From Niallia taxi (GTDB taxonomy: Bacteria > Bacillota > Bacilli > Bacillales > Cytobacillaceae): a stretch of 64,000 bases of DNA. The translations under genes were made by a program, and so were the position numbers. Shown piece after piece: positions 9,263 through 46,459 of this stretch (positions within the stretch are counted from its first letter, which is position 1; each line of letters starts with the position of its first letter). The stretch is taken from the NCBI RefSeq assembly GCF_032818155.1, contig NZ_CP102589.1:2032001-2096000 (forward strand). Direction: 5' to 3'. Under the pieces are notes generated by a model that was not told the origin of the DNA, searched no databases, and saw nothing but the letters and a program-made list of their open reading frames with translations.

Positions 9263-10738
9263 TTAGATTGTCTGTTGATTTGTCGGCTTGTCATCATCAG
9301 AATTTCCTAATTGTAAGAAGCTGCTTACAGAGCGTACATGCTCATCCAAAGCATAATTTCGGTACAAGCTGCTTGCTGATCTTACCGGGTCTCCAAAGAA
9401 AAATCTTTCATACTGTGTTTGTCTTGTGCCAAAAGCACTCATCGTTAAATCCCAGGCTAAACGAAAAATTTTATTGCGATCAACTGCCTGTTTATTTGCA
9501 CCCTGCAGATACTGAAGTAAATCCTTTCTTATCTCAGATTGAAAGGCTGCTTCTGTCGGTAATGTAACAAGTCCGCTCGCCCCGATTAATTGAATGATTT
9601 CAACAAATCTAGGGTAATTTTTTGAAAATATATTGCTGGAAACCTGAAGGGGAGTAATGTTGGGTACTATGCCCCCAAAATTATCGTACATTGCATCGTT
9701 CTCAGATTTATCTAATAACGCTTTCATCGTTTCAAGTGTAATGATGATTTCTGCCATTTTTTCTTGTATATGAGTGTACTCTCTTATATCAATTGTATCA
9801 ATGATTAATTCAGCAATTCCTAATAAAAATTCCGTTTTGACGATTTGCCTAATTAAAACTTGATGTAATGCAAAATGATGGAAGGAGCTGGAGTTTAAAA
9901 ATTCGTTTGCTGCATCTAAATTGTCATAAAAAAATACACGGCTCCATGGAACCAATACATCGTTAAATACGAGGATACAATCCATTTCCTCGTATCTAGA
10001 GCTTAATGGATGATCAACATGAGATTTCCCTCCAAAAAATGACTCTCTGCCAATAAACTTAAGTCCGGGTGTATTAGAAGGAATACTGAATGCAAATGCC
10101 TCGTTTTTATCATACTTTGGTGCACCAAATACAAGAACCTCGTCCGTTATTCCACCCTGTGTTGCCAATAGACGCGCTCCCTTTATAACCAATCCTTCTG
10201 AGGTACGTGCGATGACTTTAGCAGAGATAGGTTCTTTTGCATCCTCTAAAAATATTTGTGACCGATTTACCTGTGGAGTAATAAAAGTATGGGTAAAAGT
10301 CAAATCACGCTCTCTTGCTTCTTCATAAAGGCGTACAATGTTTTCAGGAAAACAATTTTTCTTGCCTGTAAGCAGACTAGCTGATGAAGCTAAACTCATT
10401 ACCGCTGTATTTAAATAATCAGGACTTCTGCCCATCATCCCGAAGCTTGCTTTCGCCCAGCATTCCATCATTTTACGGCGCTTATATAAATCTTCCTTCG
10501 TTTTTGGCTGCAAATAGGACATCCCAATACGTTCCCCTGTATCCGGGGAAGGAAATGTCATTAGCTGCTCCAAATCTAAGTTTGTCTGCAAGTCAAATAA
10601 TGCAGCTTTTTCCTCCAGTATCCCTTTAAATGCTGGATGTGCTGACAGCTTTTGCGTGACTTTTCTGCCGTCCAGCCATATTTCTGAATTCATGTTATCA
10701 ATTCTTTCCATAAAAGCTTTTCCATTAATAGCCCCCAT
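9263..10738 (-). CDS. hpaB: 4-hydroxyphenylacetate 3-monooxygenase, HpaB family
   Basis: A 491-residue flavin-dependent aromatic hydroxylase of the HpaB/PheA group, close to the usual 480-520 residues. Typical stretches are visible: THTFITPQVNRSQ near residue 150, the segment around TQGGITDEVLVFGAP near 200, and FFFGDPVRSASSLYR near the C-terminus. The enzyme needs FADH2 from a reductase (HpaC), and none is encoded nearby, so it must use a reductase from elsewhere. It resembles B. subtilis YoaI. The start has GAGGGAAGG ahead. The Asp/Asn-rich C-terminal tail is not a family feature. Confidence 0.85.
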   Translation of the reverse strand: MGAINGKAFMERIDNMNSEIWLDGRKVTQKLSAHPAFKGILEEKAALFDLQTNLDLEQLMTFPSPDTGERIGMSYLQPKTKEDLYKRRKMMECWAKASFGMMGRSPDYLNTAVMSLASSASLLTGKKNCFPENIVRLYEEARERDLTFTHTFITPQVNRSQIFLEDAKEPISAKVIARTSEGLVIKGARLLATQGGITDEVLVFGAPKYDKNEAFAFSIPSNTPGLKFIGRESFFGGKSHVDHPLSSRYEEMDCILVFNDVLVPWSRVFFYDNLDAANEFLNSSSFHHFALHQVLIRQIVKTEFLLGIAELIIDTIDIREYTHIQEKMAEIIITLETMKALLDKSENDAMYDNFGGIVPNITPLQVSSNIFSKNYPRFVEIIQLIGASGLVTLPTEAAFQSEIRKDLLQYLQGANKQAVDRNKIFRLAWDLTMSAFGTRQTQYERFFFGDPVRSASSLYRNYALDEHVRSVSSFLQLGNSDDDKPTNQQTI

Positions 10739-38174: not shown

Positions 38175-38178
38175 ATGA

Positions 38179-38252
38179 CGTCCCTGGAGGGAATCGAACC
38201 CACGACACACAGCTTAGGAGGCTGTCGCTCTATCCTACTGAGCTACAGAGAC
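38179..38252 (-). tRNA. tRNA-Arg (anticodon CCT)
   Basis: Read on the minus strand, a 74-base cloverleaf begins GTCTCTG and its acceptor arm closes with CAGGGAC plus the discriminator G. The D arm is GCTCAGTAGGATAGAGC. The anticodon stem ACAGC/GCTGT holds the loop CTCCTAA, giving anticodon CCT for AGG codons. The T arm is GTGGGTTCGATTCCCTC (with a shortened closing pair). The CCA end is not encoded. It is a lone tRNA gene between two transport clusters. Confidence 0.95.
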
Positions 38253-38619
38253 ATGTATGATTGTTTAACTGCTACCATAAGAGGATACATCATTGCCTGA
38301 AATCTGTAAAGTAATTAGCACTGGTAAATTCCAAAGTTTTTCCTTTTATTAAAGCAGGGATAAAGACGCTTATACTTGGTTGACGTTGCCGATGTTCATT
38401 TCGATTAAAGAATAGATGTAAATGAAAAGCAATCGCGTATTTTAGAGAAGCACAATATATTAAGATTGTAATTATTATGTATACTTTTTAAATTCTGATT
38501 CACAGGTCTACTATATTATTGCCTACGTTAACGATTAACACATATAATAAACCTGTATTAGAGACGTACCTTACATAAAATATTAAAGTATCTAACCTAA
38601 AACTAGAGGGAGGATTATA
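38253..38619. other. Intergenic region upstream of the GntR gene
   Basis: A 367-base gap that must hold the leftward tRNA promoter and the rightward GntR promoter. GTTAA-CGA-TTAAC (38527-38539) is a small palindrome in the GntR upstream region. TATAATAA near 38543 may be a -10 box. No direct repeat of the tRNA 3' end, integrase or coding frame was seen. Confidence 0.45.
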
Positions 38620-39333
38620 GTGAAACCTCTTTACATGTTAATAAAAGAAAAAATTGAGGCAGACATGCATTCAGGCAAACTAAAGTCAGGTGACAGGCTG
38701 CCTTCTGAAATAGTGCTAGCAGCAGAATTTAAAGTCAGCCGAGAAACCGTACGTTCCGCTATCCGCCTTCTTGAAGAAAATGGAAAGCTTTATGTTAAGC
38801 ATGGGGTAGGGACATTTGTTGTTAACCCATTGCCTAAGACACCGAATAGCTTAGAGCAGCTAATGAGTGTTACCTCCATGATAAAGTATGCCGGCTTAGA
38901 GGACGGGGAAAAACGGGAAAAAATAAAGCTGGATAACCCTACAGAGGAATGGAGAAATCTTCTACAACTCAAGGAGGAAGAAGAGGTAATCATTCATGAA
39001 AGAATCCGAACGGCGAATGATGAACCTGTTGTGTTTTCTCAGAATGTCATTGCGGAATCTCTTGTTAAGAAAAAAATGATTAATCAAGGCTCAATCGGCT
39101 CTCTATTCGATTACTTAAAAAAAGAATGCAATATAGATATCGCTAGAGCTACAACAGAAATTGTTGTTCCCCTTCATACAGATCGTAATTGTCATAAGCT
39201 GCTTATTCATCCAGAAACGACTGTTTTATTATTAAAGCAACTTCATTACGATCATCAAAATCGCCCAGTTCTCTATTCATTAGATTATTTTAGGAATGAC
39301 GTTTTTACATTCACTGTAAATAGAACAAGATAA
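38620..39333 (+). CDS. GntR family regulator, HutC subfamily
   Basis: A 237-residue regulator with a GntR winged helix (residues about 5-70: DRLPSEIVLAAEFKVSRETV, then KHGVGTFVV) and a UTRA ligand domain (EEVIIHERIRTANDEPVVFS, then LYSLDYFRNDVFTFTV). The start is GTG after AGGGAGGA. It directly precedes the ABC-PHP operon, and the GTnTAnAC core typical of HutC-type operators lies in front of that operon. It is probably a substrate-sensing repressor of it. Its closest known functional relatives sense phosphonates, histidine or amino sugars. Confidence 0.88.
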   Translation: MKPLYMLIKEKIEADMHSGKLKSGDRLPSEIVLAAEFKVSRETVRSAIRLLEENGKLYVKHGVGTFVVNPLPKTPNSLEQLMSVTSMIKYAGLEDGEKREKIKLDNPTEEWRNLLQLKEEEEVIIHERIRTANDEPVVFSQNVIAESLVKKKMINQGSIGSLFDYLKKECNIDIARATTEIVVPLHTDRNCHKLLIHPETTVLLLKQLHYDHQNRPVLYSLDYFRNDVFTFTVNRTR

Positions 39334-39358
39334 ATTTAATAGGCTCAAAGAGTTGGAT

Positions 39359-39395
39359 AACCAATCTATCATTTTAATAGATTGGTTTTTTGTTT
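39359..39395 (+). terminator. Intrinsic terminator of the GntR gene
   Basis: AACCAATCTAT and ATAGATTGGTT pair perfectly around seven bases, followed by TTTTTGTTTTTT. It separates the regulator from the ABC operon. Confidence 0.88.
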
Positions 39396-39505
39396 TTTAA
39401 AAGAAGTCTAGACAACCTAACGAAAGATAAAGGAAAGTTATGAATATTTACAAGAAAACAACAAATAGATGAAAGATTATTAATAATCGTTTGTTAAATT
39501 AAAGC

Positions 39506-39525
39506 TAAGAGGTATAGACTTCTTA
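39506..39525 (+). promoter_or_regulatory. HutC-type GntR operator before the ABC-PHP operon
   Basis: TAAGAGGTATAGACTTCTTA is an imperfect palindrome centred on GTATAGAC (39512-39519), which fits the GTnTAnAC core reported for HutC-subfamily GntR regulators. It lies 42 bases before the first permease start, where a repressor would act on the promoter. Confidence 0.65.
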
Positions 39526-39566
39526 TTTTTAAAAATCTTTATCTTAACAGGAGAGGAGAAGAGATA

Positions 39567-40388
39567 TTGTGGTATTTTAAAACACTTGGTAAGGGGAAAG
39601 TAGTTGAATTCATTCTACTTGCGATTTTCCTGCTATTCTTTTTTGGCCCCTTATTGAATTTACTGTTACTAGCGTTTTCTGGTGAGTGGCAATATCCTGA
39701 TGCTTTGCCAAAGTCTTGGTCATTGGAATGGTGGAGCTTCGTCTTAGCAGATGAGTCAATCGTAAGATCAGTGTGGTTATCTTTTCTTATTGCAGCAATA
39801 GTTACCATGATTTCCCTTATTATTTGTATTCCTGCAGCATACGCGTTTGCCCGCATCAGTTTTCCATTAAGGAGGTTTTTTCTTTTCTCCTTCTTGCTGA
39901 CTAATGCTTTTCCGAAAATGGGATTATATGTTGCAATCGCCGTTTTATTTTATCAATACAACCTTATGAATACATTCATTGGGATTATATTAATACACCT
40001 AATTAATACGCTTATGCTCATGACCTGGATTCCTTCTGCTGCATTTGAGAATGTGCATCGTTCACAAGAGGAATCTGCTCGCGATGCTGGGGCATCTCCG
40101 TTAAAGGTATTCTGGTATATCACTTTACCGATGGCTAAGCCGGGAATTATCGTGGCGTCTGTTTTTACCTTCCTATCTTCCTTAGATGAAGCACAAGGAA
40201 CCTTATTAGTAGGAATACCAGACTATAAAACGATGCCAGTTATCATGTATTCCATCATAGCGGACTATCCAAGTACAGCAGGTGCAGTGTTTTCAGTAAT
40301 ATTGACACTTCCAACGATCATTTTGCTATTTGCCGCTAGAAAATTTGTTGGGGCAGATTCATTTGCAAACGGAATGCGTCTTAAATAA
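39567..40388 (+). CDS. ABC transporter permease (PotC/PhnV-like)
   Basis: A 273-residue membrane protein with six segments and the EAA loop EESARDAGASPLKVFWYITL, followed by PMAKPGI, that contacts the ATPase. It is of the binding-protein-dependent importer type. The start is TTG after GAGGAGAAG. It is the first gene of a tight operon with the ATPase, binding protein and second permease. The gene set resembles spermidine/putrescine, iron(III) or 2-aminoethylphosphonate importers; the substrate is unknown. Confidence 0.87.
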   Translation: MWYFKTLGKGKVVEFILLAIFLLFFFGPLLNLLLLAFSGEWQYPDALPKSWSLEWWSFVLADESIVRSVWLSFLIAAIVTMISLIICIPAAYAFARISFPLRRFFLFSFLLTNAFPKMGLYVAIAVLFYQYNLMNTFIGIILIHLINTLMLMTWIPSAAFENVHRSQEESARDAGASPLKVFWYITLPMAKPGIIVASVFTFLSSLDEAQGTLLVGIPDYKTMPVIMYSIIADYPSTAGAVFSVILTLPTIILLFAARKFVGADSFANGMRLK

Positions 40389-40421
40389 TGGTTGCAACCA
40401 AAGGAAGGAAGGTAATCAAGC

Positions 40422-41525
40422 GTGTCAATTAGCTTATCAATAACTAATTTAAGTAAAATTTATCCTACAGGAGAAGGTGTAAAAAGCTTTTCCTTAGATA
40501 TTCAAAATGGAGAAATGGTTACGTTGCTTGGGCCTTCAGGCTGTGGGAAATCTACTGTCCTTCGCAGTGTTGGCGGATTTATCGAGCCTAATGATGGTTC
40601 CATCATAATCGATGGGCATGAGGTGAACCACCTTCCGCCTGAAAAGAGGCCAAGTGCAATGGTTTTCCAAAGCTATAATTTATGGCCGCATATGACTGTA
40701 TTTAATAATCTGGCATTTAGCTTAAAGCTTAAGAAAATGAAGAAAGCTCATATTATCGATAAAGTGAAATGGGCATTAAATCTAGTACAGCTTCAAGGCT
40801 ATGAAAAGAAGTTTCCAAGTGAATTATCTGGAGGTCAACAACAAAGGGTTGCCTTGGCACGTGCATTGCTACTTGAACCGAAAGTGCTGTTGTTGGATGA
40901 ACCGTTTTCTGCTCTTGATGCAAAATTAAGACACGAATTACGGGAAGAACTGCGAGAGATTCAAGCAAAACAGCAGCTTACCATGCTATTTGTGACACAT
41001 GATCAAGAAGAAGCATTAGCCATCTCTGATCGAATTGTTGTAATGAACAAAGGAGAAGTGGAGCAAATTGATTCTCCGCAAAATATTTATAATTATCCTG
41101 CATCCCTGTTTGTTGCTCAATTTATTGGAAAGATGAACTTCCTAACAGGTTATGCAGAAGGAAATAAAATTCATATCGGTTCACTTAACTTTCCTAATAT
41201 GAATCGATATAACAAATCGGTGACTGTTGCTGTTAGACCAGAGGATGTTGTGCTTGCAAGTGAGGTGGAAAATGGCCTTGAGGCAATGATTGAAAAAGTG
41301 ATGATGTTAGGTCATTACGCAGAGGTCAGCTTGAAAACAGAGTTTGGGATTCTAAAAATGTTTATTGATCGCAGTGAAATAAGTCAATTTAAAATGCACC
41401 AAAACATCCGCATAACGTTCGCAACAATTCAAACCTTTACAGATGAACAGGACATACATACTAATGGTTATTCAAAAATACAAAATCTAACTAAAGAGGA
41501 GATTGAAGTATATGAAAAAGTCTAA
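40422..41525 (+). CDS. ABC transporter ATP-binding protein (PotA/PhnT-like)
   Basis: A 367-residue ATPase. Walker A is GPSGCGKST (about 37-45), the Q loop is AMVFQSYNLWPHM, the signature LSGGQQQRVALARALLLEP and Walker B VLLLDEPFSALDA. A C-terminal TOBE-like domain (TVAVRPEDVVLAS on) is typical of importer ATPases of the PotA/FbpC/PhnT type. The start is GTG after GGAAGGTA. Its end overlaps the binding-protein gene by 14 bases. Confidence 0.92.
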   Translation: MSISLSITNLSKIYPTGEGVKSFSLDIQNGEMVTLLGPSGCGKSTVLRSVGGFIEPNDGSIIIDGHEVNHLPPEKRPSAMVFQSYNLWPHMTVFNNLAFSLKLKKMKKAHIIDKVKWALNLVQLQGYEKKFPSELSGGQQQRVALARALLLEPKVLLLDEPFSALDAKLRHELREELREIQAKQQLTMLFVTHDQEEALAISDRIVVMNKGEVEQIDSPQNIYNYPASLFVAQFIGKMNFLTGYAEGNKIHIGSLNFPNMNRYNKSVTVAVRPEDVVLASEVENGLEAMIEKVMMLGHYAEVSLKTEFGILKMFIDRSEISQFKMHQNIRITFATIQTFTDEQDIHTNGYSKIQNLTKEEIEVYEKV

Positions 41526-42669
41526 ATCATTAAAAAGAATGCTAACAGGAACAATATTAGCTGTCAGTACCTTTTCATTAGTTGCATGTAATTCTAGCGA
41601 GACAAACAGTGCGGCAAGCGGAGGAGAAGATGTAACTAAAATATCTCTATACAGTTCAGGCTCTCAAAATGTTGAGACTTTCTGGGAAACAGTTATTCCT
41701 AAATTTGAAGAAGAACATAAGGATATTGATGTGAATTTCGTATTTGTTCCGTCTGGGACAGGTGGACAGGCTACAATTGATCGAATTGTTGCAGCTAAAA
41801 AAGCAAATAAAGATTCTGAGATTGATATTTATGAAGGAGCACTTGCTGATATTATCCGCAGCGAAGAGGAAGGTGGACTGTTTTATGAACTTTCAACAGA
41901 ATCTATTAAAAATCTAGATAATGTTCAAGCAGAAAATCTAGAGGGTACACAAAATCTAGCAGTTCCTTATCGTGCATCATCAGTTGTTCTTGCATACAAT
42001 TCAGACAAAGTAAAGGATGTGCCGACAACGGCAGCAGAATTGAATGCTTGGATAGAAAATAATCCAGGCCGCTTTGCTTACAATGATCCAAATACAGGTG
42101 GAGCAGGAAGCTCATTTGTTCTATCAACTGTTTATAACGAACTTGATGAAAATGCTATGAATGTTCAGGATGAAAGTATTATGAAAAGTTGGGACAAAGG
42201 AATTCAAATACTAAAGGACATGGCACCAAACCTTTATAAAGCAGGAGTATATCCTAAAAAGAATCAAGGAACGGTTGACCTGCTTGCTAATGGTGAGGTT
42301 GATATGATTCCAGCTTGGTCTGATATGGCTTTAGAACAAATAAATTCAAAATTATTGCCAGATACTACTAAATTAACACAAATCGATCCAGCTTTTACTG
42401 GTGGACCAGCTTATTTAATGGCTGTGGATAATGGTAATGATGAACGTAAGGAAGCCTCTGAAACGTTCCTGGATTATGTTCTTACTCAAGATGTGCAGAA
42501 GCTGGTTATAGATACAATGTACGGCTATCCAGGTATTAAGTGGGACCTATTGCCAGCAGAGGATCAAAAGAAATTTGAAGCAGTCAGTGGCGGTTACCGT
42601 ACTTTTAACGGCGGCGATCTAGCAAGTGAATTAATGAAAGTTTGGCAAAAAGAGGTAGCGAGTCAATGA
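41512..42669 (+). CDS. ABC transporter substrate-binding lipoprotein
   Basis: A 385-residue lipoprotein with a signal peptide ending FSLVAC (Cys 26), then a Ser/Asn linker and a type-2 periplasmic-binding fold (ISLYSSGSQNVETFWETVIP at the mature start, later GEVDMIPAWSDMALEQ). The start with YSSG resembles binding proteins for iron, phosphonate or polyamines. ATG at 41512 is preferred over TTG at 41503 because AAGAGGA lies eleven bases ahead. It overlaps the permease by four bases (ATGA). Confidence 0.87.
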   Translation: MKKSKSLKRMLTGTILAVSTFSLVACNSSETNSAASGGEDVTKISLYSSGSQNVETFWETVIPKFEEEHKDIDVNFVFVPSGTGGQATIDRIVAAKKANKDSEIDIYEGALADIIRSEEEGGLFYELSTESIKNLDNVQAENLEGTQNLAVPYRASSVVLAYNSDKVKDVPTTAAELNAWIENNPGRFAYNDPNTGGAGSSFVLSTVYNELDENAMNVQDESIMKSWDKGIQILKDMAPNLYKAGVYPKKNQGTVDLLANGEVDMIPAWSDMALEQINSKLLPDTTKLTQIDPAFTGGPAYLMAVDNGNDERKEASETFLDYVLTQDVQKLVIDTMYGYPGIKWDLLPAEDQKKFEAVSGGYRTFNGGDLASELMKVWQKEVASQ

Positions 42670-43538
42670 GTAGGGAAGTGGCCTTAAAAGAGAGTTTTGT
42701 CATTCAGAAAAAAACAAAATTAGCAGTGTTAGGAATAGGGCTTGTTATGCCCTCTTTCCTAACGTTGCTTGTTTTGGTCATCTATCCAGTCGCACTTGCC
42801 ATAATGGAGAGCTTTCAAAATGAAGAGGATGCCTTTTCACTTGAGAACTATCAATATATTTTTACAGAGCCATTAATCTTGCAAAGCATTCAACATACTT
42901 TAGTAATTACATTTATTTCTTGTTTATTAACTTTAGGATTAAGCTATATATTAGCTATTTATCTTAACTTTAGTAACAGTATTTTTTCTAAAATAATCAA
43001 CAAGCTGTATTTTATCCCATTGTTTATTCCGGGCGTCATCGCCATATATGGATTTTTAAATTTTTATCGAGATAATGGCTGGGTTGCAAGAATCATTGGT
43101 GAAAACAATATGCCCTCCATTATTTATGACATGAAAGGCTTATTAATGATTAATGTGTGGTTTAATATTCCCTTTACAACCATGCTGTTATTATCGGCTT
43201 TACAAGCTATTCCTCGGTCTGTCATTGAAAGTGCAAAAGATACGGGGGCATCAAAGCTCAGGCTGTTTATTCATTTCATACTTCCTCTTTCCTATAAGAC
43301 AATGCTTGTTGCATTAACGTTTCTGTTTATGGGCTTAATTGGCAGCTTCACAGCACCCTTTCTTATCGATCGGAATGCGCCGCAAATGCTAGGTGTATCC
43401 ATGCAGCAGCATTTTTCCGTATACAATGAGATCGGCCAATCAAGCGCACTTGCTGTTTTTATGTTTGTACTATGCTCTATTGTAGGCTATGTATATATTC
43501 AAAATAATATGAAAAAGACAAAGAAGGATATGTTCTAA
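42666..43538 (+). CDS. ABC transporter permease (PotB/PhnU-like)
   Basis: A 290-residue membrane protein with six segments and the EAA loop ESAKDTGASKLRLFIHFILP. It pairs with the permease at 39567. The ATG overlaps the stop of the binding-protein gene, so translation is coupled. The gene order permease, ATPase, binding protein, permease is less common than keeping both permeases together. Confidence 0.87.
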   Translation: MSREVALKESFVIQKKTKLAVLGIGLVMPSFLTLLVLVIYPVALAIMESFQNEEDAFSLENYQYIFTEPLILQSIQHTLVITFISCLLTLGLSYILAIYLNFSNSIFSKIINKLYFIPLFIPGVIAIYGFLNFYRDNGWVARIIGENNMPSIIYDMKGLLMINVWFNIPFTTMLLLSALQAIPRSVIESAKDTGASKLRLFIHFILPLSYKTMLVALTFLFMGLIGSFTAPFLIDRNAPQMLGVSMQQHFSVYNEIGQSSALAVFMFVLCSIVGYVYIQNNMKKTKKDMF

Positions 43539-43562
43539 TTTTAAATTAGGGAGATGGTTAGG

Positions 43563-44831
43563 ATGACGGTATTAAACCCTGCAAAATTAAAGCATTTAGA
43601 GCGGTATCAATCTAGCTTTATTATTGAGGAAAAAGGCTATTATGCTGTTAATCTTAGGGCATTGGCATCTACCTCTTGGCAGGAGGAAAATAATGAATCA
43701 TTAATGCTGAGATTGTCTGTGAATCAAGTGCATCATCAAGATATTATATTATTTTATGGAAGCAATACCTTCACATATAAGCGTCTGCTTGGCTTAATGG
43801 AGCCTGGAACATACGAAATGGAATGGCTTTGTGAAACACCTCGAAACAGTGAAGCATTTGCTCAGCTTGAAGGCTGTACGCTAGAAAAATTAGCTTTATC
43901 TGATCGGGAAGCACTTGCAGTTCAATATGCTCCTAAGCTTTATGGACGTGCAGTGTACAGCCAATTTGATAATTTGTTTACGGACACTCCTTTAGAAATG
44001 ATTTATTTTTTTGATAAATGGGAAAAAGGCGCGGTAATTGAATATCATATGGTTTTTAGTCATGAAGATGAGGGGACACCTGCGGTTCTGTTAATGTCAA
44101 AGTGGGGGCGTTTATTAGATATTGAATATATGGCAAGTATTTTTTTGAATGAACAGAATGAAGTGGAATATGTTGAATATCAAGGGGCAGAGCATCAGGT
44201 GAAATCATATCAAGTAGATGATAACCAAATAATTCTTCAAACAGCTACCTGCAATGGGAACTTTACGGATGAAATTACAAGTTCCTACCATTTCTCCTTT
44301 ATTCCAAGCTACGAATGGAAAATAGAAAACGAGGCTCGAGAAACAGTCATGGTGCGTTTTCCTTATATCAATCATGTCATGAAATGGGAAGCGGAGAGAC
44401 AGTTGAAGAATTCTCCTTTGCCTTATAATAAAATCGAAAATGTGAATCAGTATATTTATATTCAATCCTCAGTATGGGGCATGGAGCTTGGCAGCCCAAG
44501 CGTAGATTTTCTTTGCCGGATTAAAGGTGATAACGAGTGGTACTCAAGTTCTTTACATAATAAAAAGCTAGGCGAATTCTCGGCAGCATATACTGGTCCC
44601 TACAATCACTTTGGAACAGCTATTTGTCTGCCAGATGGGAAATCAATGGAAGATATAGTCGAAATAAAGATTGCTCTTATTAATGAAAAGCTGCCTCAAG
44701 TCAACGTGAGAAATTTGCAGGTTTTCGCTTACGATGAAAATAACGACATGAGAAAATATATAGAAAAAGCCTTTGACGAAAATTTAAACTGGATAGAATC
44801 GGAAATGACTATTTGGCGAAAAGAGATGTAA
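43563..44831 (+). CDS. Unknown 422-residue protein in the ABC-PHP operon
   Basis: A soluble protein without signal peptide or membrane segment, beta-rich by composition (many aromatic and alternating hydrophobic residues). The region at about 125-200 holds what looks like a conserved core: KLYGRAVYSQFDNLFTDTPL, then IEYHMVFSHEDEGTP and MSKWGRLLDIEYMASIF. Acidic and His residues there could be catalytic. I recall no named family with confidence. It is 24 bases after the permease and 20 before the PHP gene, so it likely shares their substrate. ATG at 43563 follows TAGGGAG; ATG at 43554 is possible. Confidence 0.7.
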   Translation: MTVLNPAKLKHLERYQSSFIIEEKGYYAVNLRALASTSWQEENNESLMLRLSVNQVHHQDIILFYGSNTFTYKRLLGLMEPGTYEMEWLCETPRNSEAFAQLEGCTLEKLALSDREALAVQYAPKLYGRAVYSQFDNLFTDTPLEMIYFFDKWEKGAVIEYHMVFSHEDEGTPAVLLMSKWGRLLDIEYMASIFLNEQNEVEYVEYQGAEHQVKSYQVDDNQIILQTATCNGNFTDEITSSYHFSFIPSYEWKIENEARETVMVRFPYINHVMKWEAERQLKNSPLPYNKIENVNQYIYIQSSVWGMELGSPSVDFLCRIKGDNEWYSSSLHNKKLGEFSAAYTGPYNHFGTAICLPDGKSMEDIVEIKIALINEKLPQVNVRNLQVFAYDENNDMRKYIEKAFDENLNWIESEMTIWRKEM

Positions 44832-44851
44832 GGATGGTGTAAAACAACAAG

Positions 44852-46393
44852 ATGAGAGAAAAAGAGGATCATATATTATTTGAAATCAATTCAACATTAA
44901 CGAATAAAAGTACACAATCACATATCCAACACAGCTTTTTTGTGCCGGAAGATACGGACGAAATTTATGTGGATTTTTCTTTTGACCCACCACATCAAAC
45001 AGATATAAATGAAAATAACCGATTAAGTGAAGAAGCTGCTACCTATTATGAAGCAAAGCTTTCACAAAATGAATTAATTAGAAACCTGCTCACAATATCC
45101 ATTGATGATGCTGATGGCTTTAGAGGGGCGCGTCATTATCATTCACCTATCCAACATCATATGCTTAGTGAGTTTAATTCAACTGCAGGATTCCTTAATA
45201 AAAGAAATCCTGCCGGGCTATGGTCTGTTACGGTAAGCATTCATGCATTGGTAACAGAGAGCTGTACATATAAGCTTCGTATATATAAAAGGCACCATTT
45301 GGGATCCGAAACGGTGATACCGTGGCAAGATAGGCCGTTAAATAAACAAATAATAGATAATGACTCAAGTATTCCAGCATATCCCCCTCTAGAAGGTCCT
45401 GTGAGGTGGGTACCATCTGAATTGCATACACATACATTTCATAGTGATGGGAAACAGTCACTGTTGGAAATGGTAGAAGCTGCTAAGGAAATGGGCCTTA
45501 AAGCAGTCGTTATGACAGATCATAATACTATCAGCCCTTTTGAGGGAATCGAACAAGCAGAAGATCAAACAGGTCTGAATATTCTGTATGGTTTGGAATG
45601 GACGACATTTTACGGACACCTACTAACGATAGGATATGATTCGCCAGCCTACACGGATTGGCGAGTAATTGGACCATTAGATATTGAAAAAGGTATTAAA
45701 AGCATTCGGCATCATGGTGCCTTGGTTGGAATAGCCCACCCGTTTCGGATCGGTAACCCAATCGGGACAGGCTGTCACTGGGAATTCCCTGTCGAATCCA
45801 TTAATGTCGTTGATTTTATAGAAGTTTGGAATTCCACAAGACCAGGGTCGAAAGCCTATAATCAGCGGGCCTTTTTATATTGGACAGACTTGTTGAATAA
45901 AGGCTATAGAATAACAGCAACTGCAGGAAGGGATTGGCATCATAATGAAGAAATAAATCCTTTACCTGCAATTACGTATGTACAAATGTCTCAAGGCAGT
46001 GCAGCAAAAGATACGTTCAGAACTGCTTTTTTACAGTCTATCCGTGGAGGGCGAATCAGTATTTCATATGGAAAACCACTTGAACTTATCGTAAAGCACG
46101 AGGACATGACTTATAGTGTTGGTGATGTACTTGATAGAGTGGAAAATCAACCGTTAATTGTACAAGTTTCATCAGAGGGATGGGAATATAATAGCCGCAT
46201 TGATAGTAATAATGCTGTCTTGGTTATAGTAACAAATACTGGAGAAATACTACATGGCAGCCCTGGGCTGTTACAACTTCAAGCTGAAATAAAGGAAACA
46301 GATGTAAAATGGATTCGATCAGAATTATATGCTTCCATTGATAATGGCACCCCAGAGCTGGTCGCTTTTACTAATCCTATTTATATAAGGTGA
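44852..46393 (+). CDS. PHP-domain metallohydrolase, CehA/McbA family
   Basis: A 513-residue protein. An N-terminal beta domain (about 1-180) precedes the PHP domain: SELHTHTFHSDGKQSLLEMV at about 189-208 with the first metal-binding HxH, MTDHNTISP with D and H, GLEWTTFYGHLL, GIAHPFRIG and TAGRDWHHNEEINP. This is the CehA/McbA type, whose members hydrolyse phosphoesters or, in two cases, carbaryl. It has no signal peptide, so it acts on the imported compound. It is the last gene of the operon, and a long hairpin follows. Confidence 0.87.
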   Translation: MREKEDHILFEINSTLTNKSTQSHIQHSFFVPEDTDEIYVDFSFDPPHQTDINENNRLSEEAATYYEAKLSQNELIRNLLTISIDDADGFRGARHYHSPIQHHMLSEFNSTAGFLNKRNPAGLWSVTVSIHALVTESCTYKLRIYKRHHLGSETVIPWQDRPLNKQIIDNDSSIPAYPPLEGPVRWVPSELHTHTFHSDGKQSLLEMVEAAKEMGLKAVVMTDHNTISPFEGIEQAEDQTGLNILYGLEWTTFYGHLLTIGYDSPAYTDWRVIGPLDIEKGIKSIRHHGALVGIAHPFRIGNPIGTGCHWEFPVESINVVDFIEVWNSTRPGSKAYNQRAFLYWTDLLNKGYRITATAGRDWHHNEEINPLPAITYVQMSQGSAAKDTFRTAFLQSIRGGRISISYGKPLELIVKHEDMTYSVGDVLDRVENQPLIVQVSSEGWEYNSRIDSNNAVLVIVTNTGEILHGSPGLLQLQAEIKETDVKWIRSELYASIDNGTPELVAFTNPIYIR

Positions 46394-46408
46394 AATACCT
46401 GTAGTTAA

Positions 46409-46459
46409 GAAATGAGTAGGATGAGTCCGCTAGGGAGCCAGACTCATCCTATTCATTTC
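46409..46459 (+). repeat. 19-bp hairpin at the end of the ABC-PHP operon
   Basis: GAAATGAGTAGGATGAGTC (46409-46427) pairs with GACTCATCCTATTCATTTC (46441-46459) at all but one position, where a G-T pair forms, around 13 bases. There is no clean T run after it. It probably marks or protects the 3' end of the operon message. Confidence 0.75.

Follow-up and report, generated by a model that had tools for sequence, protein, structure and literature searches.

What does a compact set of importer and hydrolase genes in Niallia taxi take up, and how is the solute processed in the cell? The genes lie in a stretch of 64,000 nucleotides (contig NZ_CP102589.1, positions 2,032,001 to 2,096,000; hereafter the window), in which seven open reading frames (ORFs), all on the forward strand, span positions 38620-46393. 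Assignments with Pfam and NCBIfam identified a GntR/UTRA regulator of the HutC type (38620..39333), an ATP-binding cassette (ABC) permease with a BPD_transp_1 domain (permease 1, 39567..40388), an ABC ATPase with a TOBE_2 domain (40422..41525), a solute-binding lipoprotein (SBP; SBP_bac_8, 41503..42669), a second BPD_transp_1 permease (permease 2, 42642..43538), a protein of 425 residues without family (43554..44831) and a CehA/McbA-family PHP metallohydrolase (44852..46393). An earlier note, made from the DNA letters of the window, had described this set. Its genes and families were borne out, and its length of 422 residues for the family-less protein corresponds to an in-frame ATG at 43563 rather than to the first ATG. 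The spacing that it gave, gaps of 4-33 bases or overlaps, applies to the six tightly packed genes from permease 1 to PHP but not to the regulator gene, which is separated from this operon by 233 bases. We propose, with about even confidence for and against, that the cassette is a substrate-inducible system for the uptake and catabolism of organic phosphodiesters, in which the 425-residue protein would make the first, GDPD-type cut and the PHP enzyme would act next.

The cassette is not a peculiarity of one strain. Five of the 13 genomes of the window's genus have the 425-residue protein, a full-length PHP protein is found in exactly these five, and all of them kept the whole cassette. Outside the genus, the 425-residue protein was patchily distributed (5 of 398 Bacilli genomes and 2 of 299 in the phylum, own genome included in both counts); in a family of the Paenibacillaceae type it turned up in 21 of 394 genomes. 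Mapping by tblastn gave 36 distinct loci with this protein, and the named carriers of the cassette were Amphibacillus, Gracilibacillus, Evansella and Paenibacillus species. The closest contig with a species name, from N. taxi, is 96% identical in the 425-residue protein. Not counted among the 36 were four short loci (L087, L090, L092, L095), three duplicates (L053, L101, L111) and L042 and L043, whose contigs are those of L038 and L041; some loci stop at contig ends (e.g., L046, L047, L051), and gene calls rest on bit thresholds that we chose. PHP genes followed downstream in 30 loci, 29 of which also carried importer genes. The regulator gene comes first in Niallia, Amphibacillus, Gracilibacillus and some Paenibacillus loci; Evansella caseinilytica has it at the end, as do most of the remaining Paenibacillus-type loci. 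The neighbourhood is thus conserved far outside the strain, in other genera, whereas the earlier note had allowed for a strain-specific arrangement. It had likewise allowed for a substrate already known for the same gene order, and neither NCBIfam assignments nor the literature search yielded one. We found no published description of the cassette in a search that was only partly aimed at the cassette or the PHP family and covered few subscription journals.

The strongest clue to function came from relatives in which the 425-residue protein is replaced. A profile search detected PHP proteins of this type in 114 of 388 Paenibacillaceae-type genomes (E up to 1e-60). These included 20 of the 21 genomes with the 425-residue protein, leaving 94 without it. 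From 43 of the 94 genomes we inspected 44 loci (L140-L143 and L173-L212), chosen by hand from the list rather than at random. A GDPD gene adjoined the PHP pair in 43 of them (exception, L198), and 36 of the 44 combined the same importer with a LacI-type regulator. The GDPD assignment is supported by PF03009 (E 1e-26) and by the best PDB match, 2pz0, itself a GDPD, and the active site is intact: H18, E44, D46, H59 and K111, which we take to be catalytic-type residues, are identical in 43 of 43 sequences. The two partners were never found together, with GDPD in none of the 36 loci of the 425-residue protein and the latter in none of the 44 sister loci.

Moreover, the exchange did not happen only once. 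In a first tree, built from both permeases and PHP of 63 loci, two changes of the partner label were required, although this tree includes L051, whose permease 1 lies beyond the contig end and which forms an artefact branch. Two changes were again needed when SBP was added and L051 and L104 were omitted (61 loci), and a single GDPD clade was rejected (p-AU 0.0005); both trees were quick searches that returned long-branch warnings. The GDPD of a second group (L188, L192, L207) is just 32-33% identical to the main one. The partner has thus been exchanged at least twice between the 425-residue protein and GDPD. That one protein has more than once taken the other's place within an otherwise unchanged set of genes is our main reason to suppose that the 425-residue protein does the job of GDPD, or something equivalent to it with a related substrate.

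The second enzyme of the cassette belongs to a known family. The PHP protein scored 241.8 bits against the CehA/McbA model NF038032 (cut-off 80). Its metal-ligand set is conserved throughout, with H192, H194 and D199 in 74 of 75 sequences (one gap, in L104) and H224, E249, H256, H296, D361 and H363 in 75 of 75. With ligand roles assigned by alignment to 3e0f and from general knowledge of the family, the nine-ligand, trinuclear-type metal site is predicted to be intact. Ahead of the catalytic part lies an N-terminal beta-sandwich domain (about residues 6-146). In Bacillaceae loci, PHP is a single gene for 500-550 residues, while in Paenibacillus-type loci the N-terminal domain (about 150 residues) and the catalytic part are separate ORFs, so that either the window's form is a fusion or the Paenibacillus-type form a fission.

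The earlier note had proposed the import and hydrolysis of an organophosphorus compound or an ester. The regulated importer and the hydrolases are present, and GDPD in the relatives makes organophosphorus the better half of this proposal. The other half, an ester- or carbamate-degrading system with PHP as a carbaryl-hydrolase-like esterase, takes its cue from the carbaryl hydrolases after which the family is named, and we found nothing beyond that name in its favour. As the NCBIfam domain model is broad and its name does not transfer function, and as GDPD is the partner enzyme in most fetched relatives, we consider such a system highly improbable.

Is the cassette controlled by its own regulator? 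The regulator combines a GntR helix-turn-helix domain with a UTRA domain (Pfam, 65.9 and 90.5 bits), as is typical of the HutC type, and fell below the cut-off of the NCBIfam PhnF model (111.7 vs 156.8). A GntR homologue was present in 28 of the 30 loci carrying genes for both the 425-residue protein and PHP. The earlier note had connected regulator and operon through a GTnTAnAC operator. On its own, this motif did not stand out from chance in the window (12 copies vs 9.5 expected), and no copy in the window lies 5' of the regulator gene. Both putative operator copies, GTCTAGAC at 39406..39413 and GTATAGAC at 39512..39519 (no strand assigned), fall in the gap between the regulator and permease 1 genes. 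The first was recognised by motif scan and conservation, and the second fits the extended consensus AGAnGTmTAkACnTCT at 14 of 14 positions. What gives them weight is that related cassettes, too, have the site upstream of permease 1. Of 28 cassettes with the 425-residue protein, 27 carry a GT[AC]TA[GT]AC-type site in the 320 bases before permease 1, and the sole cassette without it, L052, belongs to a locus that also lacks the GntR gene. Among the controls, the site stood in 18 of 476 other upstream regions from these loci, in none of the 36 GDPD-type cassettes and in about 1 of 28 after shuffling of two-base blocks. Since the pattern was adjusted after sites had been seen in some of these loci, the absolute rate is biased; even so, the contrast between cassettes and controls is not subtle. 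The operator proposed in the earlier note is thus upheld by its conservation before the operon.

Across the genome of N. taxi, we counted 19 exact matches to GTMTAGACNNC, the cassette sites included, compared to 67 for the reversed-pattern control. The two cassette sites scored 12 and 14 of 14, and one other match scored 13 but lies inside an ORF. A site resembling GTATAGAC lies 27 bases 5' of a gene that by eye is nagA-like (L073:1501-1511; own genome C1:3417182), where it may serve a paralogous regulator as a NagR site. A wide GntR regulon was considered and rejected. As the best matches outside the cassette sit in ORFs or before the nagA-like gene, the regulator looks local, and we list it as a candidate local repressor.

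From these data we infer which reactions take place, in what order, and on what kind of substrate. When the substrate is absent, the HutC-type GntR protein would occupy the two GTmTAkAC operators before permease 1. The lipoprotein SBP would capture the solute outside the cell, and the two permeases and the ATPase would import it. In the cytosol, the 425-residue protein would first cleave the phosphodiester, presumably in a metal-dependent reaction at D172, D189-x-E191 and H214. The PHP enzyme would then hydrolyse the resulting phosphomonoester (or cyclic phosphate) to phosphate and a usable alcohol or sugar. The first cut is most likely made by the 425-residue protein because it occupies the place of the GDPD phosphodiesterase in the relatives. 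We describe the substrate as an organic, perhaps sugar- or glycerol-containing, phosphodiester. Further support for a joint role comes from the persistence of the two enzymes as a pair when the importer is missing: L102 retains both, with the GntR gene and without importer genes, and a distant version of the pair exists in L110.

Several observations weigh against this scheme. Six of the 36 loci (L037, L050, L056, L057, L058, L110) lack the cassette PHP genes, and in three of these (L037, L050, L058) the 425-residue protein stands beside other importers; its role is thus not bound up with this one substrate. The regulator class switches together with the enzyme, from GntR in the 425-residue form to LacI in the GDPD form (LacI-type genes do occur near some loci of the former, namely L036, L037, L048, L049, L050 and L058). 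The two forms may therefore differ in substrate, and the 425-residue protein need not carry out the GDPD reaction. In addition, sn-glycerol-3-phosphate as the product of a GDPD would need no phosphatase, and we know of no catalytic member of the Nep1-like protein (NLP) fold, which the middle domain of the 425-residue protein resembles. A rival explanation divides the labour differently: a phosphorylated compound is imported, but the 425-residue protein acts on its sugar part, as a lectin-, glycosidase- or lyase-like or substrate-presenting protein, and the two forms take different substrates. Strict mutual exclusivity, together with no fewer than two exchanges beside one and the same importer and PHP, is most simply explained if the two proteins are functionally equivalent, and we give this rival clearly less than an even chance.

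The 425-residue protein, our candidate cytosolic phosphodiesterase in GDPD's stead, had no significant match in Pfam, NCBIfam or PDB sequences. Its structure was predicted with a pLDDT of 88.3 and comprises a CBM-like domain (residues 1-114), an NLP-like domain (about 115-277) and apparently a third beta sandwich (about 296-425). R132, D144, E163, E171, D172, R186, D189, E191, H214 and E263 are identical in all 36 rows of the alignment. Within the NLP-like domain, D172, D189xE191 and H214 form a candidate metal or active site, proposed from conservation and spacing; invariant charged residues are typical of such a site. Neither the window protein nor any of 19 aligned members matched PF03009, and the predicted fold also differs from that of GDPD. 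Compared to NLP cytolysins, the protein has extra domains on both sides of the NLP-like one. The 19 members gave no NPP1 match at E up to 10, with the HMMER filters dropping weak matches; the GHRHDWE heptapeptide is absent, the corresponding stretch being WGRLLDIE as judged by reading the alignment, and no signal peptide was evident by eye in the window protein. Tentatively, we suggest a new enzyme family with this protein as its first member: metal-dependent phosphodiesterases (or phosphodiester lyases) in which CBM-like sandwiches flank an NLP-like domain, and which have repeatedly been swapped with GDPD before a PHP phosphatase. This reading, which would give the NLP fold a catalytic branch, we hold to be rather doubtful.

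Homologues of the protein were also observed in other settings. In L110 (8266-11256), a distant homologue (hhalign 100%, 25% identity) lies 5' of a distant CehA/McbA PHP protein; both have signal-peptide-like starts (by eye) and are followed by a HupE/UreJ gene, with no importer. In Evansella halocellulosilytica (L058:2402-21209), a homologue lies amid GH4, PfkB, PIG-L and AraC genes and two further importer sets, together with a 432-residue CehA/McbA protein and a DUF5054 protein. The gene appears split in L057 (9977-11262), as does the PHP gene in L104 (around 9360-10103), through decay or assembly error.

Could the solute be a lipid head group? Under this explanation, a head-group phosphodiester such as glycerophosphoinositol or inositol (cyclic) phosphate would be scavenged after phospholipase attack. 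The evidence comes mainly from a third arrangement, seen in 8 of the 44 sister loci, in which the PHP genes (with GDPD in seven) have a different neighbourhood and importer. In L189 Pfam bore out this importer (two BPD permeases and SBP_bac_1); elsewhere it was recognised by eye. PI-PLC-X genes with signal-peptide-like starts are present in three of the eight loci (L181:13639-14544, L182:5481-6413, L195:13272-14192). PI-PLC occurred in 4 of the 8 third-arrangement genomes (in G694 on another contig) vs 2 of 48 others (p 0.0025), in a survey made after one PI-PLC had been seen. Sphingolipid head groups that carry inositol phosphate are bound by NLPs (PMC6743777), whose fold the middle domain resembles. 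Finally, the homologue in L037 (9393-11817) is followed by a 285-residue iolD-like ORF, a fragment covering the first 277 of 616 model positions. However, none of 18 surveyed genomes with the 425-residue cassette had PI-PLC near it, and only G573 had one at all, on another contig. Likewise, iolD scored above its cut-off in 11 of 18 genomes with this cassette vs 10 of 16 that have no cassette (p 1.0). The PI-PLC association hints that some of the substrate may come from phospholipid head groups, and we think it unlikely that the solute is specifically a phosphodiester of this kind. Inositol catabolism as the end point was rejected, as iolD was unassociated with the cassette and, in the third form, was present in 4 of 8 genomes, with G580 and G694 having PI-PLC yet no iolD.

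The importer itself is conserved but fits none of the importer classes compared. The window's permease 1 is 65-84% identical to that of related cassettes in other genera, and the lipobox cysteine of the SBP, C29, is invariant across 13 aligned rows. A PDB profile search with the SBP gave weak and mixed matches to sugar, maltose and spermidine binders. The best-scoring NCBIfam models for the ATPase and permeases were PhnT2, PotA and similar, which would agree with import of phosphonates, polyamines, iron or thiamine by a transporter with unrelated hydrolases attached. All scores, including that of the regulator for PhnF, remained under the curated cut-offs, and importer and enzymes have been kept together in different genera, which makes this explanation very improbable. 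The individual candidates were rejected accordingly (scores vs cut-offs): a 2-aminoethylphosphonate importer of the PhnSTUV type (PhnT2 369.5 vs 457.7, PhnV 55.4 vs 358.7, PhnU2 73.3 vs 593.25, PRK15046 34 vs 310), a polyamine importer (PotA subfamily 317.9 vs 355.6), a Ugp importer (UgpA 35.6 vs 335, UgpE 26.6 vs 297, UgpC 326.5 vs 432) and an iron or thiamine importer (family models below cut-offs). Among the sister loci, L141 (10790-15403, part also in L142) has a PhnS2/PhnU2-like ABC importer and an ApaH/calcineurin-like phosphoesterase directly 5' of its PHP pair, with substrate-binding and permease scores far under the cut-off.

Further features frame the genes. A terminator-like hairpin follows the regulator gene within the 233-base gap (39359..39387, forward strand). 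The terminator pattern scan of the region found no excess over shuffles (5 vs 5.3), yet this hairpin folds with a minimum free energy (MFE) of -12.1 kcal/mol and z -3.7. A stronger hairpin after the PHP gene (46409..46459, forward strand; MFE -32.3 kcal/mol, z -7.05) has no clear T run on its 3' side and may be a terminator or RNA stabiliser; its end coincides with position 46459, where the earlier note had ended the locus. A tRNA-Arg (CCT) gene (38177-38253) adjoins the regulator gene on the opposite strand.

Organic phosphodiesters are a source of phosphorus and carbon in soil. Our analysis points to an uncharacterised importer-hydrolase cassette whose PHP gene was present in 114 of 388 sampled Paenibacillaceae-type genomes. 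It provides the CehA/McbA PHP family with a testable role beyond carbamate pesticides, and for a family-less protein it sets out a precise hypothesis, namely that it substitutes for GDPD. If true, this would add a phosphodiesterase family and possibly a catalytic relative of a fold described as binding membrane lipids.

How does the cassette compare to known systems? Its closest relatives, the LacI-regulated cassettes of Paenibacillaceae-type genomes, are alike in the importer (permease 1 68-71% identical), the PHP genes and tight clustering, and differ in having GDPD for the 425-residue protein, LacI for GntR, no GTmTAkAC operator (0 of 36) and PHP split in two genes; we found no substrate assigned to them. 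The Ugp importer for glycerophosphodiesters and glycerol-3-phosphate works with the GDPD UgpQ, a pairing that the GDPD form resembles (GDPD in 36 of 36 sister importer loci vs 0 of 36 loci with the 425-residue protein, window included). The window shares with Ugp an SBP-dependent ABC importer and differs in subunits far below the Ugp models and in the added PHP enzyme. That enzyme agrees with other CehA/McbA metallohydrolases in NF038032 and the full ligand set, and differs in the extra N-terminal beta sandwich.

Two further systems are comparable in the way they work. The acc genes of Agrobacterium for agrocinopine comprise a repressor, an ABC importer with a binding protein, the cytosolic phosphodiesterase AccF, whose product is the repressor ligand, and the phosphatase AccG (PMC4526662). 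The window follows the same importer, phosphodiesterase and phosphatase logic, likened by gene logic alone, with the 425-residue protein in the place of the phosphodiesterase. The earlier note's view that no known pathway combines these genes was thus too strong in kind. For xanthosan, XanT-XanP provides dedicated uptake and a phosphodiesterase for a sugar phosphodiester, differing from the window in its TonB-dependent transporter and 2H phosphoesterase (PMC12807533). While membership in either system, or in the Ugp, phosphonate or polyamine classes, is unsupported, the cassette, judged by its genes, resembles acc and xanthosan in the way it would work.

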